Below, piece after piece: positions 15,446 through 40,095 of a stretch of DNA of 64,000 nt. This DNA comes from a virus. Both the position numbers and the translations under genes were made by a program. Position 1 is the stretch's first letter. The number at the start of each line of letters is the position of its first letter. Under the pieces are notes generated by a model that made no database searches, had not been told where the DNA came from, and worked only from the letters and a program-made list of their open reading frames with translations. The DNA is taken from IMG/VR virus record IMGVR_UViG_3300042868_010004, positions 124,001 to 188,000 of that record; one strand, 5' to 3'.

Positions 15446-16993
15446 ATGGCATCAAAATCCCTTTTTTCAGTTGAAATTGAACAGTCAATCCTTGCAATTC
15501 TCTTACAATACCCCGAATCCTATGTAGAAATCCCCTTCATCAACTCAAAAGATTTCTCTCGGCAGAACTCCCCGATCTTCGCCGTTATATCAAACATTGT
15601 TGAGAATAAGGGTCGCCCGGATGAAATTGTGGTAGCCGAAAAACTGAAATCCCTCGGGATTACATTGGAGGGGCTTGAGGTGGGTGATTTCTGCTCTGCA
15701 TTGAAAATCCGCCCTGTCGATAAACGGAATATTTTGGATTTGGCTAAAGCCTTAAAGAAGAAAACTCTCATCCGAACCATCCACGAGAACGCAATCAAAG
15801 TTCAGAAGGAGGTTTTGGAAAATGAGGATAAATCGGCGAAGGAATTGGTTGGAATCGCGGATAAGTATTTGGGAGAATCTTTAATTAGCATTACCCAGAA
15901 TGAGCGTGAGGCGAAGAACCTTCTGGAAGAACTTCCTTCCGTGATTGAAGAAATGGGCAATCCGGAAAATATCAGTGATTTTATCAACATGCCGTATAAA
16001 ACATGGAATGATATTATCGGGCCACTTCGTCCGGGACAGATTTACATGTGGGCGGCTCGACAAGGATCAAAAAAATCTACTTTACTCCTTGATATTACGC
16101 GAGATATAGCAGCGGCCAATCCAGACAAGGAAGATATGGCTGTATTATTTTTAGATTCCGAGATGACAATTAATGACGCCATCGTTCGTTATGTTGCGGG
16201 AAATATTGGTTGTCCACCATTCTTGATGGATTCTAAGAAATGGAAATTTTCGAAAGAGTGGGCTCCCAAAATTAATGAGGAGGTTCGGCGCATTCAAAAC
16301 TTAAAACATAAGAATATTTGGTTTGAACCCATCGGGAATATGGGAATGTCAGAGGTTGAGAAATTTGTCAAACGATGGAAATTGACTAAGTGCGGTCGTT
16401 CACGTTCTTCTGTTATCGTATATGATTATTTCAAGTTGAATAACAACGACAAGAAAGAGCTTAATTCAAAAGAGGGAGAGCACAGTCAGTCCTACCAGAA
16501 GATCGAAATAATTAAAGATCTTTGTGACTGGACAACCTCCCCGCTTCTTTCTGCTCTACAACAAAATCGTTCTGGTGATATTCTTAGTAAAGATGGTCCG
16601 GACGATTCCTCGGCATCGAATTCCCTCAGTGATAGGATCGGATGGTTGGTTGCAGTTCTGGCTATTCTTCGTGGGCGCACTCCTGATGAAATGCTGAATG
16701 ATTCAACTCCGGAGATGAAAGCCCCGTCAAATAAAATGATTTTTCAGAAGACTCGCTACCTGTGGGAACATGGTCCAGCGTTTTTGAATTACATTAGGGT
16801 TGGCAAGGGTAAAGACGTTAAATATACCCCGAACTTCATGAATTTCGATATTACCAACTTCAAAGTGACCGATTGCGGCACGCAGGACCAATGGCTTATT
16901 AAGACGGGTCAGCAGGCCGTAAAAATCAATAAAGCAGTTAGCGAATCGAAACTTATTAAGGAGGCGGATAAGGGTGAAGAACCTGCATTTTGA
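15446..16993 (+). CDS. dnaB: DnaB-type replicative helicase
   Basis: 515 aa, usual size. Residues 5-115 match the DnaB N-terminal helical domain (VEIEQSILAILL...); residues 180-480 the RecA-like helicase core. The Walker A loop reads ARQGSKKST (204-212), where the glycine before the catalytic Lys is replaced by Lys; Walker B is LFLDSE (235-240) and a VYDYF acidic motif follows. It would unwind the fork with the primase at 18279. No intein is visible. The substituted P-loop is odd but the ORF is intact. Confidence 0.87.
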   Translation: MASKSLFSVEIEQSILAILLQYPESYVEIPFINSKDFSRQNSPIFAVISNIVENKGRPDEIVVAEKLKSLGITLEGLEVGDFCSALKIRPVDKRNILDLAKALKKKTLIRTIHENAIKVQKEVLENEDKSAKELVGIADKYLGESLISITQNEREAKNLLEELPSVIEEMGNPENISDFINMPYKTWNDIIGPLRPGQIYMWAARQGSKKSTLLLDITRDIAAANPDKEDMAVLFLDSEMTINDAIVRYVAGNIGCPPFLMDSKKWKFSKEWAPKINEEVRRIQNLKHKNIWFEPIGNMGMSEVEKFVKRWKLTKCGRSRSSVIVYDYFKLNNNDKKELNSKEGEHSQSYQKIEIIKDLCDWTTSPLLSALQQNRSGDILSKDGPDDSSASNSLSDRIGWLVAVLAILRGRTPDEMLNDSTPEMKAPSNKMIFQKTRYLWEHGPAFLNYIRVGKGKDVKYTPNFMNFDITNFKVTDCGTQDQWLIKTGQQAVKINKAVSESKLIKEADKGEEPAF

Positions 16994-17007
16994 TGAATGT
17001 CATTGAT

Positions 17008-18075
17008 TTAGATAAAATATTCTATCTCGGGATTCAAGCTATTGTTTTTAGCGACAATATTACAAATTTCAATAAATCTATTCACTTCTAACTCCTGCTT
17101 CATTCTATTAATATCCCAAATACATAATACAACATTGTCTTTCACATATCCCTTTCCTGAGTCAATTCTGTCTATACTCAAAACATTTTTATGGTTTGGT
17201 TTCCACGATAATAACTCACCGGAATAAAAACAAAAACCTTTCTGTTTTTTGAAGATTTGTAACATATACTCTAAATCTATATTAAAATCCCAATTCATTT
17301 TCAAACATCGACTCTTACCAAATTTAATTTTCTGTTTCAACATTTGCTCTAGTATTAATCTTTTGTTTTTATTTTCATTTTTTCGATCTAGAATTTTTTT
17401 ATATTTATAAGTGATTTTAAGTTTTTCGCATCTATGGATAATGGAAATGTCACTTCGGATGAGAGTTTTGGAGATTTCATCAATATCAATATTATTATCG
17501 AGCATATCAATCAATAGGCGGTCTTCCTCTTCACACCAAGACCGGCCACCCTTGGGGTTTCTAAACCCATATTGCCGACATATATATTCCACGGTCTCTA
17601 GGGGCAACTCCGTTTTGATGCTTATAATCTTTTTTGTAAATTTTTTATTTTCTAACATGTTTTTAATGTCAGATAAAAGGCTATCGGAATATTTTCTGGA
17701 GGAAATAGAACTAGTCTGATATCCCTTGTCCGAGCCATTGAACTCTGATTTTCTGACTAGCCCGAGTTTTTTTGAGACACCCTCTGCTTCATAAGTGGTA
17801 AGCCCTAATTTAGACCCAATTTCTGACATTGGTAAATTCTCGAAAAATAAATTTCTAAATTTTAAAACAAATGAATCTTCAAATGTTACCCCTTTTTTGA
17901 ATTTATATTTCTTTCTGATCCCTATTTTGCCCTTTCTTGCGTCTATGGCGGGGCGCGTAGTCCCCATCTCGACAGCAATTTCAAATACCCCCTTGCCTTT
18001 TTCGCACAGAGATATAAGTTTTTCATCCAGTTCCTTTGTCCACTTAATTTTTGGTAGATTTGATGTGTTTTTCAT
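17008..18075 (-). CDS. HNH homing endonuclease on the minus strand
   Basis: 355 aa, read from 18075 down to 17008; a longer frame to 18111 exists but the ATG at 18075 gives the natural start MKNTSNLPKIKWT. The N-terminal 210 residues hold repeated Myb/helix-turn-helix-like units (KWTKELDEKLISL..., SWCEEEDRLLIDML...). The C-terminal end carries FCFYSGELL...LSIDRIDSGKGY..DNVV, the HNH nuclease core. It overlaps the upstream RHH gene by 32 bases. It is opposite to all neighbours and AT-rich, inserted between helicase and primase, hence a mobile element. Confidence 0.82.
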   Translation of the reverse strand: MKNTSNLPKIKWTKELDEKLISLCEKGKGVFEIAVEMGTTRPAIDARKGKIGIRKKYKFKKGVTFEDSFVLKFRNLFFENLPMSEIGSKLGLTTYEAEGVSKKLGLVRKSEFNGSDKGYQTSSISSRKYSDSLLSDIKNMLENKKFTKKIISIKTELPLETVEYICRQYGFRNPKGGRSWCEEEDRLLIDMLDNNIDIDEISKTLIRSDISIIHRCEKLKITYKYKKILDRKNENKNKRLILEQMLKQKIKFGKSRCLKMNWDFNIDLEYMLQIFKKQKGFCFYSGELLSWKPNHKNVLSIDRIDSGKGYVKDNVVLCIWDINRMKQELEVNRFIEICNIVAKNNSLNPEIEYFI

Positions 18076-18196
18076 ATTGTTCAGTAATCCCGTTTGAAAT
18101 AATAGTAACAAGCTTAAGGCCGCTTAACTTAGCGATCTCTCTTAGCTTGGCGTCTGTTTCTGGCTTTAACTCCAAATTTAATCTTTTGATGCTCAT
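18044..18196 (-). CDS. Small ribbon-helix-helix protein paired with HNH endonuclease
   Basis: 50 aa, read from 18196 down. KRLNLELKPETDAKLREIA then a helix with GITEQY fits the Arc/MetJ/CopG ribbon-helix-helix fold: one short beta strand that inserts in the major groove as a dimer, then two helices. It is the first gene of the minus-strand pair and overlaps the endonuclease start. Three bases ahead of its ATG lies a direct repeat of TGGTGTA with 10-base period. It probably represses its own operon. A matching pair occurs at 39007-39147. Confidence 0.7.
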   Translation of the reverse strand: MSIKRLNLELKPETDAKLREIAKLSGLKLVTIISNGITEQYEKHIKSTKN

Positions 18197-18198
18197 AC

Positions 18199-18215
18199 TA
18201 CACCAGTTTACACCA
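18199..18215 (-). promoter_or_regulatory. Candidate RHH operator (TGGTGTA direct repeat)
   Basis: On the minus strand TGGTGTA occurs twice (18209-18215 and 18199-18205) exactly 10 bases apart, ending three bases before the RHH start codon. Direct repeats spaced by one helical turn are typical binding sites of cooperating RHH dimers. It lies in the 82-base divergent gap shared with the primase gene. Confidence 0.45.
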
Positions 18216-18278: not shown

Positions 18279-19190
18279 ATGAATAAGATTGATTTGGAAA
18301 AATTAGAAAACAAAGTAACCCAATCGGACGGTTCTTGGGTTTGTTTTTGTCCTGCGTGTGGAGAAGAGGGGCGTAATTTACGGTCTAAGAATCACTTGCG
18401 CGTTTGGCCCGACTTGCGTTTCAATTGTGTCGTTAGCACGGGGGACCGCCAGCACAACTCAAGAATTCTCCAATTAGTCGGAACCGAATCGGACGGAATA
18501 CTGACTCATTATACCGCCCGAACTGAAGAGCCCAAAATTAAACAACCCGCGACTTGGCCGCTATCCATTCTCGACAAGCTGATTTTTGATTATTCCTATT
18601 TCGAATCCCGAGGAATCAGTGCGGAGACTCAAAAGCATTTCCGAATGGGCGTGGCGAGCAGTGGGCAGTTGAATGGCCGGGCGATTCTCCCTATTTTATC
18701 CCCGCAGAAAGATAAAATTATCGGGTTCACGGGCCGACTCATAAATTATACTAAATGGCACAAGGAAAACAAGATACCCAAATGGAAACATCTCAATCCG
18801 TCCGGCAGTTTCCTGCTTGTTGGTGATGAATTTTCTATTCGCGAATCCCGAACAATCCTCATAACGGAAGGCCCAGCAGACATTCTAGCACTATATGAAG
18901 CCGGAATACGGAATACAATCTGCTTATTCGGAACGACAATCAGTTCAAAGCAACTTGGTTTTCTAATTAAGAGCAATCCATTAAAAATTGTAATTGGATT
19001 GAATAACGAACCCGGAAATAAAAATATTGGCGGGATCGCTGCCGAAAAGCTCCGGAAGACTCTTTTGAATTATTTCTCGGAAGAAAGGATAATTATTGCG
19101 CTCCCGAAGGCTAAGGACTACAATGACTGGCTTTTGGAAAAAAATGGAAAATCAGAGCTTGACGAATACCGAAAAACATGGCTTCCTTGA
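18279..19190 (+). CDS. dnaG: DnaG-type primase
   Basis: 303 aa, shorter than bacterial DnaG. An N-terminal zinc ribbon (CFCPACGEEG at 22-31 and FNC at 48-50) precedes a TOPRIM catalytic region with ITEGPADILALYEAGI (near 194-209) and a second acidic motif GLNNEP...GGIAAEKLRKTL, then ALPKAKDYNDWLL. It would make RNA primers with the helicase. The LNNE form of the second motif is a known phage variant. No helicase-interaction domain is evident at the C-terminus. Expressed divergently from the minus-strand RHH pair. Confidence 0.85.
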   Translation: MNKIDLEKLENKVTQSDGSWVCFCPACGEEGRNLRSKNHLRVWPDLRFNCVVSTGDRQHNSRILQLVGTESDGILTHYTARTEEPKIKQPATWPLSILDKLIFDYSYFESRGISAETQKHFRMGVASSGQLNGRAILPILSPQKDKIIGFTGRLINYTKWHKENKIPKWKHLNPSGSFLLVGDEFSIRESRTILITEGPADILALYEAGIRNTICLFGTTISSKQLGFLIKSNPLKIVIGLNNEPGNKNIGGIAAEKLRKTLLNYFSEERIIIALPKAKDYNDWLLEKNGKSELDEYRKTWLP

Positions 19191-24866: not shown

Positions 24867-26543
24867 ATGAGTGATATTTGGGATGGGGTTGAAATAAGTG
24901 TCAAGCAGGACGTTTCATCAGGAAGAGGTTCTTCTTGGTCTAAAGAAGATGAGAAATTCCTAAGAGATAACCATGATCTTCTTGGTAGAAAAGAATGCGC
25001 CAAAAAACTAGGGAGAACATTTTCGGCAGTTTGCTGTAAAGCTAAAAAGATGGGGTTAAACGTTGATACGAAAATAGATCAAGGGATTGTAGATTTTCTA
25101 AAAGAGAATTATTCCAAATTAGGTCCAGCTAAATGTGCCGAAATCTTGGGAATGCCTAAAAATAAAGTATATTCAATTGCTACATCCAGAAAAATACATG
25201 GTGGAAGAAACTTTGAATGGCATGACTATGAAATTCAATATTTGAAAGACAACGTTTATAAAAAGAGTCTATATGAGATATCTTCCTTCTTACAAAGAAC
25301 ACAAAGTAGTATAAAAAATAAACTTCACAAATTAGATATTTTAGAGGATAGAAAATGGAAAGATGAAGAAAATATTTTATTTAAAGAAATTTATAGTAAA
25401 AAAACTCTAGATGAATTGGTTGATATCTTTAAAAGGACAAAATCCTCCTTACAGGGTCATGCATTCAAATTAGGAATTACTGATAAGAATAAAAATTGGT
25501 CTGATGAGGATGATTCGTTACTTAAAAAAATTTACCCAACTAAAGAAACTGGTTTTTGTGCAATTTTACTAAAAACAACACAAAGAGCAGTTGCTTCTAG
25601 AGCGTTTACACTAGGATTAGAAAAAGGTAAAATTGTTTACGAGCAGGATGATATGAAATCATGCTCAAAATGTAAACAATATATACCAATTAATAGCTAT
25701 TTATTCCAAAATTCTAAGAATTTATATTCAGCGGCCTGCAAAGAATGTCAAAATAAAAAAGCTAAAAATAGGGGAATTACTTTCCCCCCAGAACAAGAGA
25801 CAGAAATAAAAAGATTATTCTCTCTGGGTATGGGATCACCCGAAATCGCCGAAACGACAAAATTTAGTGGTAGATCTAAAATATCTCAGTTTTTAAAACA
25901 AAATGGACTCAGAAGGACATCGGCTTTTCGCTTCAAACAGAAATTTAAAGACAGAGTTGGTAAAAAATTTAATTTGTTAACCGTTTTAGACAGACATGTT
26001 GATGATAAGGGAAGGACTTCGTATACTTGTTTATGCGATTGCGGGAACACAGCAGTGATCAAAGGAGACGGCGTTTTCTCTGGAAAAACCAGAAGTTGTG
26101 GTTGTCTTTTATCCAGAAAGGGTATTGATAACCCGAACTGGGGAGGTGCCGGGGAGATATCGGGTCAAGTATTTTCTTCAATTAGGGGTGGTGCGGCATC
26201 TAGAAATTTAGAATTTAATATAAGTGTCGAATATATTTGGGATTTATTTCTAAAACAAAATAGAAAATGTGCCATCTCTGGATTAGATTTATGTTTCGCT
26301 ATAAATGACCAAGAAAAAACAGCCTCATTAGATAGAATTGATTCTAACCTTGGATATACCCAACAAAATATTCAATGGGTTCATAAATATGTGAATTTTC
26401 TCAAACGCGAAATACACGATATTGATTTTTTTACTATTGTAAAACATGTTTATGAGTTTAAAAAATTGAATGAATATAGCCCAAGCGATTTATTAGAAGC
26501 GTTTAAACAAAGCCCCTATTTTTCTAGATTTAATAATGAATAA
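24867..26543 (+). CDS. HNH homing endonuclease inside the split polymerase locus
   Basis: 558 aa. The first 260 residues contain four or five Myb/SANT-like helix-turn-helix repeats, each with a Trp-x-x-(D/E)-(E/D) start (SWSKEDEKFL, EWHDYEIQYL, KWKDEENILF, NWSDEDDSLL). CSKC and CKEC cysteine pairs follow. Residues about 370-415 (NLLTVL...CLCDCGN...SGKTRSCGCL) form a cysteine-rich module frequent in phage HNH proteins. The HNH core is ASLDRIDSNLGYTQQNIQWVH near 485-505. AT-rich codons with AGA arginine mark it as foreign. It overlaps the polymerase start by eight bases. Confidence 0.85.
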   Translation: MSDIWDGVEISVKQDVSSGRGSSWSKEDEKFLRDNHDLLGRKECAKKLGRTFSAVCCKAKKMGLNVDTKIDQGIVDFLKENYSKLGPAKCAEILGMPKNKVYSIATSRKIHGGRNFEWHDYEIQYLKDNVYKKSLYEISSFLQRTQSSIKNKLHKLDILEDRKWKDEENILFKEIYSKKTLDELVDIFKRTKSSLQGHAFKLGITDKNKNWSDEDDSLLKKIYPTKETGFCAILLKTTQRAVASRAFTLGLEKGKIVYEQDDMKSCSKCKQYIPINSYLFQNSKNLYSAACKECQNKKAKNRGITFPPEQETEIKRLFSLGMGSPEIAETTKFSGRSKISQFLKQNGLRRTSAFRFKQKFKDRVGKKFNLLTVLDRHVDDKGRTSYTCLCDCGNTAVIKGDGVFSGKTRSCGCLLSRKGIDNPNWGGAGEISGQVFSSIRGGAASRNLEFNISVEYIWDLFLKQNRKCAISGLDLCFAINDQEKTASLDRIDSNLGYTQQNIQWVHKYVNFLKREIHDIDFFTIVKHVYEFKKLNEYSPSDLLEAFKQSPYFSRFNNE

Positions 26544-37249: not shown

Positions 37250-37516
37250 ATGAGCAAGACTCCAAAGGATAAATTTTCACCCGGACAATACTGGTTTGCA
37301 ATCCAGAAGGAGGATGGGCAAGGCGTCCGCCATCAGATTGTTGAGCATAATAGGGAGGATGACCCGGAAAATCAGGGTGGGGTGCCGACTGAGCCCGAAA
37401 TTATAACTTGGTCCGACCCGACTGCAAATGGAGGGCATACATGGAGGGGGCCGAAGGAAGAGTTTGAGAAGCGGTTTAAATGGATTGGGTTTGATAAGAA
37501 AACAGGAGATAAATAA
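37250..37516 (+). CDS. Unknown protein, 88 aa
   Basis: 88 aa. KFSPGQYWFAIQKEDGQ and TWRGPKEEFEKRFKWIG suggest a small beta-rich domain. Ends directly before the HAD gene. Not recognised. Confidence 0.5.
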   Translation: MSKTPKDKFSPGQYWFAIQKEDGQGVRHQIVEHNREDDPENQGGVPTEPEIITWSDPTANGGHTWRGPKEEFEKRFKWIGFDKKTGDK

Positions 37517-37519
37517 TTG

Positions 37520-38104
37520 ATGAATAAAAAGTTGCACATTTTTCAAGACCTCGACGGGTGCCTAGCAGACTTCTGTAATGCCGCGATGAAAGCTCTCGGC
37601 GTGACAAAATATACAATCCCCCCGAATGAGCCAAATATGGAGAAGTGGCCGGGTGTAAATTGCACCACGAAAGAATTCTGGCTGGCAATTGATAAGACAG
37701 AGGAAGACTTCTGGGTCGGGATTGAGAAGTTCCCCCATTCGGACCCAATCATGAAAATGCTTCATACCTATGGGGACGTTTTTTTTCTCACGAGCCCATC
37801 GCGGAATCCGAAATGTCTGTCCGGGAAAGCCATGTGGATTAAAAAGCACTATCCCCGCATGGTCAGAAATGTAGTTTATACTCCTGCGAAATATCTTTGT
37901 GCCAATTCGCATTCTATACTTTTAGACGACACGAGCGCGAAAATAAAGAAGTTCGCCGAACATGGGGGTTGGACAATCATGTGGCCGCAACCTTATAATG
38001 AAGCATGGGCGGATTTTCAACCGTATAAGGGGAATTATCAGGAGTATATTCGGGTGAAGCTGGAAGAAATCAAAAGCAAGATTCAACAAGACTATCAGGC
38101 ATGA
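37520..38104 (+). CDS. HAD-family 5'(3')-deoxyribonucleotidase-like protein
   Basis: 194 aa from the ATG at 37520. FQDLDGCLADF (motif I, Asp10 and Asp12), FLTSPS (motif II Ser/Thr), and LLDDTSAKIKKF (motif IV) are HAD phosphatase signatures in the arrangement of NT5C-type deoxyribonucleotidases. It likely dephosphorylates nucleotides or a similar small substrate in the phage nucleotide pathway. Confidence 0.75.
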   Translation: MNKKLHIFQDLDGCLADFCNAAMKALGVTKYTIPPNEPNMEKWPGVNCTTKEFWLAIDKTEEDFWVGIEKFPHSDPIMKMLHTYGDVFFLTSPSRNPKCLSGKAMWIKKHYPRMVRNVVYTPAKYLCANSHSILLDDTSAKIKKFAEHGGWTIMWPQPYNEAWADFQPYKGNYQEYIRVKLEEIKSKIQQDYQA

Positions 38105-38250
38105 CTAATACTAATCCAACCACAATCAATGTTTTCTGTCTTTGGAAGAATAGCGAACCGCATATTCAGAGGACGTTATACCAGCTAGATAATCTTCTGG
38201 CTTTACCGAATTTTAAATTCAACCTGTTTTTAGTTTGGCATTGCGCCTAA
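38101..38250 (+). pseudogene. Truncated 5' end of a glycosyltransferase paralogue
   Basis: A 49-codon frame starting in an ATGA overlap with the HAD gene. VFCLWKNSEPHIQRTLYQLDNL...FKF matches the first 45 residues of the intact glycosyltransferase at 39202, then homology stops where the minus-strand GIY-YIG endonuclease begins. Identity to the intact copy is only moderate at DNA level, so this is an old paralogue cut by the insertion and not a recent duplication. The rest of it is missing. Confidence 0.7.
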
Positions 38251-39010
38251 GATCATCCCCTCCTAAATTTCTCCATCCCTTTACCTTTTTTATTTTGTCT
38301 TTTGAAAGCGCCCATATACTAGACGCTTCAACACCTATTTCTTCGGCAAATTTTTTCAGGCTGCTTCCTTCTCTTATTTCTCCTGACTCGAAAATAAATC
38401 GAAAAATAGCCCCCTTTTCTTTTGGCGGGTTATCCGGATTTGTCCAGCCCTTATATCGCGGTATCTTTCCGGTTGAAACTGCGTATAAACCGCTAGTGTC
38501 GAAATTTGGAAGATTTTCCCGACAAAATTTCCTTAAATTAGATCCTTCAATAATTTCCCCCGATGGGGATTTCAACCTAAAATTTTTAGCCAAATGATTT
38601 TGATTATAAAGCGTTTGTCTAATTTTTGTTTTTGTATCTTCCCTCACTTTTCGCCCCTTTGTTTTGTCTCCTATCCTTCTTCGCGTTTCTTCTGAAAAGA
38701 TTCGGTTCCCTTTTCCGCCTGTGTCTAAATTATACCCCCTAGGGGACAGGCTCTTATATAGTGTTATGAAGGTTTGCTCTAAATGATTTAGTTTTTCGGG
38801 CGAGTCTGTTTCCCATATAATTTCTTTTTTTAGTCTATTTTTGCCACCATTTTTAATAATAGATTTTATAATCATACCACTCCCTACATACCAATGATCT
38901 TTTTGCGGCAATCTTTTGGTCATTCTTTGCCCAATGTAAATTTTACCGTTTTTAGTATCAGTCGTTTTATAGATGTAAAAATACTTTGGCGCGACATACT
39001 TTCTACTCAT
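38219..39010 (-). CDS. GIY-YIG homing endonuclease on the minus strand
   Basis: 263 aa, read from 39010 down. FYIYKTTDTKNGKIYIGQ (about 11-28) is the GIY-YIG core, with an R and an E (LEQTFI) further on. FSEETRRRIGDKTKGRK is NUMOD3-like, and two repeats (SPSGEIIEGSNLRKFCREN and SGEIREGSSLKKFAEEIG) are NUMOD1-like DNA-binding modules. It interrupts a glycosyltransferase paralogue and is oriented against its neighbours. Its ATG overlaps the stop of the RHH gene upstream. Confidence 0.85.
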   Translation of the reverse strand: MSRKYVAPKYFYIYKTTDTKNGKIYIGQRMTKRLPQKDHWYVGSGMIIKSIIKNGGKNRLKKEIIWETDSPEKLNHLEQTFITLYKSLSPRGYNLDTGGKGNRIFSEETRRRIGDKTKGRKVREDTKTKIRQTLYNQNHLAKNFRLKSPSGEIIEGSNLRKFCRENLPNFDTSGLYAVSTGKIPRYKGWTNPDNPPKEKGAIFRFIFESGEIREGSSLKKFAEEIGVEASSIWALSKDKIKKVKGWRNLGGDDLRRNAKLKTG

Positions 39011-39147
39011 TTTACCCCCTCTACAATCAAAGCCCTTTTGATGACTTCTGCCATGCTGATTCCTTGCTCCTTAGCTTTCGCCTTTAAAGACTCCTTTTGG
39101 GAGTCTGTTAGAAAAACCTCGATTTTTTGCTTGCCTTTTAGTTTCAT
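39007..39147 (-). CDS. Small ribbon-helix-helix protein paired with GIY-YIG endonuclease
   Basis: 46 aa, read from 39147 down. QKIEVFLTDSQKESLKAKAKEQGISMAEVIKRALI is a clear RHH pattern: strand, helix, turn with Gly, helix. It lies directly before the endonuclease with an ATGA overlap. An 8-bp palindrome TACATGTA (39147-39154) touches its start codon. It is unrelated in detail to the RHH at 18044 but has the same place and orientation relative to an endonuclease. Confidence 0.7.
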   Translation of the reverse strand: MKLKGKQKIEVFLTDSQKESLKAKAKEQGISMAEVIKRALIVEGVK

Positions 39148-39201: not shown

Positions 39202-40095
39202 ATGACAAAAACAGTAATCAATACTTATTTACTCTGGAAAAATAGCGAGAATCATATTCAGCGGACTCTCTATCAGTTGGAAAATTTAATGAAATTGGAG
39301 GATTTTCAGTTCCAATTTTTCATGTACGGCAACGATCACGCGGACCTAACGAATGAAATTCTTGAACAGTGGAAGGCAAGCCATCCAGAAGTATTGATTG
39401 TCAATCAGTATGAGGAATTGGGTGCGCCTTCATTTGGTTCGGTTCAATCAACAATCAGAACCTCGCTTATTGCCCACTACCGGAATAAATGCAAGAGAAT
39501 GGGTCTGAATTATGATTCTCGCGCGTCTCTTGTGATCGACACTGACATTGAATGGACGAGCGATGACTTTTTATCCCTGTATAACAATCTAGTCATTCTC
39601 CCTTTGTGTGTCGGAGTTATCTCTAGCACTATTCAGTCGAATATTCCGGACTGGACGGAAAACATAGATCCGTTCAGTCAATATGATTTATTTCCATTCA
39701 GAGATAAACTTGGCAATCCGGGATGTTATTTCAGTCGGACCCCGTTCTATCTGGAAGAGGACCGCCAGAAGTTTTTGGCCGGGGAGCCTGTGGAGATAGC
39801 GAGCGGATTCGGCTCAATGGCGCTATACGATTCTAAGACATATAATGATTGTCAGTATTCTGGTTCGTTCAATAGTGAGCATATCGCGCTATCTTATCAA
39901 ATTCGTCAATTCGGAAAACTTTACGTTGACCCCAAGGCGGTCCCTTCGACCACGATAGATCTGTCATCTGTCAATCTGGATGCCTGCCGTCAAATCGGGG
40001 CCGACAATTTTAAGAGAATGAAGGAAGTCAATCGGCTTCACAATTGGGCTTTGGCGGAGAAGTATGAATTTGAATTTAGAGCGAAAAACGCTTGA
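39202..40095 (+). CDS. Putative GT-A-type glycosyltransferase
   Basis: 297 aa from the ATG at 39202. VIDTDIEW (near 113-120) is a DxD-like metal/sugar-nucleotide motif, and FGSMALYDSKTYNDC...SEHIALSYQIRQFGKLYVDP resembles the acceptor side of GT-A enzymes of the GT2/GT62 kind. With the GDP-mannose dehydratase it could glycosylate phage DNA, virion or host surface. A broken paralogue lies upstream at 38101. Confidence 0.6.
   Translation: MTKTVINTYLLWKNSENHIQRTLYQLENLMKLEDFQFQFFMYGNDHADLTNEILEQWKASHPEVLIVNQYEELGAPSFGSVQSTIRTSLIAHYRNKCKRMGLNYDSRASLVIDTDIEWTSDDFLSLYNNLVILPLCVGVISSTIQSNIPDWTENIDPFSQYDLFPFRDKLGNPGCYFSRTPFYLEEDRQKFLAGEPVEIASGFGSMALYDSKTYNDCQYSGSFNSEHIALSYQIRQFGKLYVDPKAVPSTTIDLSSVNLDACRQIGADNFKRMKEVNRLHNWALAEKYEFEFRAKNA

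Follow-up and report, generated by a model that had tools for sequence, protein, structure and literature searches.

CcdA-type antitoxins are proteins of the RHH family. In 2025, an association between CcdA/HicB-like antitoxins and PacI-like putative homing endonucleases was reported for moraphages, with regulation and a compensating benefit as the two suggested explanations (PMC12619734). Many free-standing endonucleases of phage T4 have no promoters and use upstream ones, and I-TevI limits its own expression as an autorepressor at its operator (PMC2988022). In fungal mitochondria, mobile ORFs with duplicated C-terminal ends are described for atp6 of Allomyces and for atp6, atp9, cox2, and nad3 of Glomus (PMC3630166).

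We analysed a 64,000-nucleotide stretch of viral DNA (the window), which comprises bases 124001–188000 of a 191,122-base virus record. The contig IMGVR_UViG_3300042301_004732 represents the same virus, with 100% identity over the stretches compared. The window carries two cassettes, in each of which a gene for an RHH-like protein leads a nuclease gene, of the HNH family at site 1 and of the GIY-YIG family at site 2. These are ordinary homing nucleases in an unusual arrangement. Site 1 fits the moraphage report: a predicted RHH-type regulator adjoins a PacI-like HNH gene (a profile of phage HNH relatives, with the site-1 protein included, matched PacI at E 1.4e-5), both cases concern large aquatic phages, and the regulatory hypothesis is the same (PMC12619734). 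The initial annotation, which knew of no described family of this kind, was thus wrong in substance. The GIY-YIG pair extends the moraphage report; another difference lies in the stubs of target genes, which are unmentioned in the available text of PMC12619734. PF07432, named for the four complete moraphages, was found in none of five records, including the record of this virus, G000, which may be incomplete.

The T4 seg and mob genes have in common with the cassettes the nuclease superfamilies, the free-standing state, the location beside replication or nucleotide genes, and, for segD, the antisense orientation; they differ in that they are intergenic with distant cut sites or divide a gene into two parts that both work (mobA, mobE), and the word stem "duplicat" is absent from the main text of that review (PMC2988022). 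As with I-TevI, we propose that the expression of a homing endonuclease is held down at its own operator, but I-TevI is itself the repressor, whereas here a separate RHH protein would act (PMC2988022). The nearest analogue is provided by the fungal mitochondrial mobile ORFs, in which a nuclease gene also invades a coding gene, brings a replacement end, and leaves the native end as a remnant; the 3' end is concerned there, and the 5' end with its own start codon in the phages considered here (PMC3630166). No precedent for 5' stubs is described in the available text of PMC2248197 and PMC8849078, and none at phage nuclease genes was found among literature titles and abstract openings (subscription papers and preprints lay outside this search).

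Composition of the two cassettes

The coordinates, gene order, and orientation given for both pairs in the initial annotation were correct on re-check of the ORFs. Site 1 consists of the following features:

15446..16993, plus strand: gene for a DnaB-like helicase, upstream of the site (Pfam and PHROG matches)
16993..17019, plus strand: beginning of a primase gene left as a 5' stub, MNVIDLDKI, with an ATG that overlaps the helicase stop codon
17008..18075, minus strand: gene for an HNH (PacI-like) endonuclease of 355 aa, ATG at 18075 (PHROG search, endonuclease family phrog_3322, E 5.5e-21)
18044..18196, minus strand: RHH1, RHH-like protein of 50 aa (AlphaFold/Foldseek; PHROG Arc-like repressors, weak, E 0.027)
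18199..18215, minus strand: candidate operator just 5' of RHH1, direct repeat TGGTGTA with a 10-base period
18279..19190, plus strand: intact primase gene (Toprim), which has a start codon of its own (primase matches in Pfam and PHROG)

The features of site 2 are:

38101..38232, plus strand: 44 codons of a glycosyltransferase-like gene, left as a 5' stub (identical to the intact gene at 24 of 41 aligned residues)
38219..39010, minus strand: gene for a GIY-YIG homing endonuclease of 263 aa (phrog_314, E 3.7e-30; PADLOC HEase, 3.9e-11)
39007..39147, minus strand: RHH2, RHH protein of 46 aa (PF01402, 23.4 bits; phrog_3180, Arc-like, E 6.1e-6; model)
39202..40095, plus strand: intact target gene, glycosyltransferase-like by eye (one homologue, in G003, 42% identity)

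Both cassettes are antisense to the long ORFs around them and poorer in G+C (0.334 and 0.376) than the window (0.419). The RHH and nuclease genes overlap by 32 bases at site 1 and by 4 bases (ATGA) at site 2; the claim of the same overlap at both sites was therefore wrong.

RHH2 exceeded the cut-off of Pfam RHH_1 (23.4 vs 20.5 bits) and gave weak antitoxin-like profile matches in Pfam and NCBIfam. RHH1 matched no RHH family in Pfam or NCBIfam, and as a query it found matches in the same virus only. Single-sequence AlphaFold models (mean pLDDT 80.8 for RHH1 and 77.5 for RHH2) consisted in both cases of an extended stretch followed by two helices. In Foldseek searches against the PDB, the 50 matches listed for RHH1 were mainly CopG, Arc, and antitoxins (best E 0.19, none significant), and the matches listed for RHH2 were mainly CopG, Arc, and RHH antitoxins (best E 0.12, none significant), with a few dehydrogenase chains low among them. 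The initial annotation had made its proposal depend on the prediction of an RHH fold, and this prediction failed for neither protein; both are predicted to be RHH-like. Its observation of two unrelated nuclease families, each led by an RHH gene, is partly confirmed.

Both nucleases match endonuclease or homing families through their catalytic domains, and no toxin family was matched in Pfam, PHROG, or PADLOC. The catalytic-domain columns are conserved in the GIY-YIG protein. The N-terminus of the HNH protein is weakly Myb/GcrA-like (Pfam matches to GcrA at 0.0016 and to Myb at 0.0027, both below cut-off). As is typical of free-standing homing endonucleases, no self-splicing intron was detected: no group I intron family was matched at the two window sites (up to E 1), nor at the nine other stub loci described below.

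A third HNH gene of the window (24867-26543, plus strand, 558 aa) is co-directional with its surroundings, amid genes that look polymerase-III-like by eye, and no RHH-like ORF was seen by eye before it. A further HNH match lies outside the window at G000:C1:9945-10271. In this virus, both antisense nuclease genes have an RHH gene and the co-directional ones looked at have none. Shine-Dalgarno motifs preceded 7 of the 35 window ORFs of at least 180 aa, against 18.7% at random; this lack of a signal above random hints at a host that may not use Shine-Dalgarno sequences.

5' stubs beside phage nuclease genes

An unexpected feature is the position of both cassettes within the 5' end of a gene, nine codons into the primase gene at site 1 and about 44 codons into the glycosyltransferase-like gene at site 2. 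The broken 5' end is kept as a stub on one side of the cassette and the intact gene follows on the other, which is the pattern of gene-end replacement, here for the 5' end. The initial annotation had placed the site-1 pair between helicase and primase; that location holds, but more exactly the pair is inside the primase gene, a 5' copy of which directly follows the helicase stop codon.

At site 1, the stub overlaps the helicase stop in an ATGA, runs for nine codons only, and then breaks into the 3' end of the HNH gene, whose stop codon falls within it. The primase proper restarts at 18279 with MNKIDLEKL. The stub agrees with the window primase start in 21 of 27 nucleotides and with the primase start of the related contig L004 in 23 of 27. 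When the 27-mer of the L004 primase start was compared with the whole window on both strands, the stub was the best match, ahead of the window primase (22/27) and the next stretch (19/27).

At site 2, the stub breaks off into the 3' end of the GIY-YIG gene, the stop codon of which again falls within the stub. Stub and intact gene share 61% nucleotide identity, and their differences are distributed over the codon positions as 16/10/22. With 22 of the 48 differences at third positions, this tilt suggests that both had been working genes before being joined. Over 35 residues, the stub shares 18 with the homologue in G003, the intact gene shares 17 with it, and stub and intact gene share 23. The intact gene matched no Pfam or NCBIfam family.

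Other phage nuclease genes were surveyed by comparing the first 50 residues of the gene that faces the nuclease by its start with the sequence beyond the nuclease. With thresholds set after a first look at 140 tests had pointed to such stubs (score at least 45, z at least 4.5), 13 of 172 nuclease tests passed, compared with 1 of 432 controls, for which the same test was run around other genes of the same loci. By family, the passes were 9 of 75 tests for GIY-YIG, 3 of 95 for HNH, and 1 of 2 for the window, where the site-1 stub fails because of its shortness. When the comparison was mirrored to the 3' ends of genes, 1 of 185 nuclease tests passed vs 3 of 561 controls. Three of the 13 raw rows were dropped on curation by eye, namely L311 (a repeated HNH motif), the second row of L142 (an opposite-strand artefact), and L270 (a doubtful hit, in which the frame continues into the nuclease); site 2 of the window was counted apart. 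After curation, a stub was retained at 9 of 157 other phage nuclease genes, eight of them GIY-YIG (8/67; L142, L191, L126, L153, L121, L158, L131, and L119) and one HNH (1/90; L080). 5' stubs are in excess at phage nuclease genes, with a Fisher p of 8e-5 for curated nuclease rows against uncurated control rows (9/170 vs 1/425 tests) and of 2e-6 before curation (12/170). Sixteen additional tests at other loci, of which 13 concerned named phages (Agrobacterium, Sinorhizobium, crAss-like, Synechococcus, Vibrio, Escherichia, Enterococcus, Klebsiella, and an uncultured podovirus), revealed no stub, and neither did a test on the window's third HNH gene.

Five of the curated loci (L191, L153, L158, L119, and L121), out of nine, have a stop codon in the stub frame at precisely the point where the resemblance to the target ceases, which looks as though the edge of the cassette had brought it.

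The stubs might instead be decayed tandem paralogues or remnants of unrelated rearrangements, beside which the nucleases were inserted. The mosaic character of the region would suit such an origin, and at site 2, where stub and gene share no more than the 24 residues given above, a tandem paralogue could be the source. However, the excess at nuclease genes concerns 5' stubs and not 3' remnants, and several targets look usually single-copy by eye, for example that of L191, which resembles a thymidylate synthase N-terminus, and that of L131, which is clamp-loader-like. We therefore consider this origin rather doubtful, though it deserves some weight, and prefer insertion by homing as the source of the stubs.

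Variable occupancy supports the mobility that the initial annotation had assumed. A search for the helicase gave four viral contigs that carry a relative of it; one of them is the same virus. In L005, the helicase-primase junction is empty, and the primase starts 3 bases after the helicase stop. In L004 and L006, a plus-strand ORF of 465–466 aa with LAGLIDADG and AP2 motifs (by eye) lies between the two genes. Since the window has the antisense RHH-HNH cassette at this place, the junction occurs in three states and resembles a homing hot spot. The ORF at the junction (L004 7539-8936, L006 7511-8893) matches the endonuclease family phrog_4645.

For site 2, presence and absence can be compared with one distant and imperfect counterpart, G003 (the record of L006), which has a single copy of the target gene with neither nuclease nor stub. 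The gene is preceded there by an apparent homologue (by eye) of window ORF 37250-37516. In the window, the stub is preceded by a nucleotidase gene; this gene was not detected in G003, which makes G003 an imperfect empty site.

The helicase gene (15446-16993) is 79% identical to that of L004, while the other matched genes show about 26-51%; this identity suggests that the helicase gene may have been exchanged. The region is mosaic and relatives are few, which limits the assignment of donor and recipient. Co-conversion, as judged from the relatedness of helicase and primase, is not firm because of this mosaic structure.

Distribution of the RHH-nuclease pair

RHH-nuclease pairing is rare, yet it occurs at two unrelated nucleases in one genome. 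Of 99 viral or phage records, two had PF01402 above cut-off, and both of these represent this virus; the 99 records took in those of 38 of 80 HNH loci and 49 of 80 GIY-YIG loci, mostly as longer contigs, and others besides. Weaker PF01402 matches (up to E 0.1) occurred in six other records. In one of the six, L184, a likely RHH gene lies two genes before a GIY-YIG gene and was not counted as a pair.

The initial annotation had proposed a search of phage genomes for RHH genes just upstream of HNH or GIY-YIG genes, and the outcome speaks mostly against generality. Among 91 short ORFs near nuclease starts (30-130 aa long, with their end no more than about 90-120 bases from the start) at 146 loci (75 HNH, 71 GIY-YIG), no RHH family was matched (Pfam, E 0.05), in a scan that recognised one of the two RHH proteins of the window used as controls. 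At 91 further non-redundant HNH loci, where 55 ORFs were inspected by eye and six scanned, one ORF was RHH-like by eye only.

This 56-aa ORF, in the region 1523-2285 of L226 (from an Izimaplasma bin), overlaps an HNH gene that lies between nrdD-like and nrdG-like genes. Its assignment to RHH was unsupported by Pfam, PHROGs, PADLOC, and PDB sequence searches, and it was absent from the 60 best matches of a three-sequence local profile. The nrdD-like ORF of the same locus seems by eye to contain the end of an intein. The "transcriptional regulator" before an HNH gene in cr1_1 is not RHH-like by eye.

Antisense insertion as such does not explain the RHH gene, because no RHH was detected at 11 loci in which the nuclease is antisense to both neighbours (3 of 66 HNH and 8 of 70 GIY-YIG loci classified).

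The role of the RHH proteins may be viewed differently from the regulatory one. They could be antitoxin-like passengers that aid the phage, for instance against toxin-antitoxin defence of the host, and so offset the cost of the nuclease without regulating it. RHH2 does resemble antitoxins in weak profile matches and in Foldseek matches, and the same alternative was proposed for moraphages (PMC12619734). On the other hand, lengths of 46 and 50 aa would leave little room for a toxin-binding tail beyond the predicted DNA-binding fold, and the close overlap of each RHH gene with the start of its nuclease gene speaks for coupled expression, which makes the passenger role unlikely in our opinion. 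We regard it as still less probable that the RHH protein is a specificity partner that helps the nuclease to bind its site: although the RHH gene adjoins and overlaps the nuclease gene, both nucleases extend well past the catalytic domain, the HNH protein has weak DNA-binding-like matches of its own, and the surveyed relatives of the nucleases have no detected RHH neighbour. Coincidental adjacency of two small genes agrees with the failure to find the pair at the surveyed loci but is very improbable, given that RHH_1 above cut-off is nearly absent from the 99 records while an RHH gene stands directly before two unrelated antisense nucleases, and that a similar association is reported in moraphages (PMC12619734).

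Proposed history and regulation

With somewhat better than even confidence, we interpret the two sites as antisense free-standing homing cassettes of an RHH and a nuclease gene, which entered their targets close to the start codon and are passed on along with an intact target start from the donor, the RHH protein being an autorepressor. In a phage that has no cassette, the nuclease would cut the target within its 5' coding region, and repair would copy in the donor cassette along with the donor's own intact 5' end of the target. By analogy with homing elsewhere, homologous recombination may serve the side of the target gene, and an illegitimate or short-homology join the side of the stub. The old 5' end of the recipient would then stay as a stub that holds the nuclease stop codon, and the target gene would remain whole.

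Being antisense, such a cassette cannot be transcribed from neighbouring promoters and should therefore need one of its own. The RHH protein is probably an autorepressor: it would bind its own upstream region and repress RHH and nuclease together, preventing over-expression of the nuclease. That RHH limits nuclease expression, as the initial annotation had suggested, is plausible. The 7-base direct repeat TGGTGTA 5' of RHH1 is a candidate operator of RHH1; a repeat of this kind, assessed after it had been noticed, was found in 2.4% of random 43-nt stretches, and site 2 has no counterpart of it. Promoter and terminator scans gave no excess at either site. Given the missing Shine-Dalgarno signal, translational coupling through the gene overlaps is possible.

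As a tentative generalisation, which we hold with less than even confidence, phages may contain start-restoring homing cassettes as a class of their own, which enter conserved coding genes shortly behind the start and provide them with a new, working 5' end. The antisense form with its own RHH repressor would be a self-contained, self-limiting mobile unit, in which the nuclease, HNH or GIY-YIG, could be swapped while the type of regulator stays the same.

There is no good explanation so far of how free-standing homing endonucleases enter genes that the phage needs and yet do not kill it; the T4 examples reviewed in PMC2988022 are intergenic or divide genes into parts that still work. If the cassette is passed on along with an intact gene start, the invasion of coding sequence is accounted for, and hybrid target genes should occur. 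Should a dedicated RHH repressor be confirmed, it would add another restraint on a selfish gene to the known autorepression by the nuclease.
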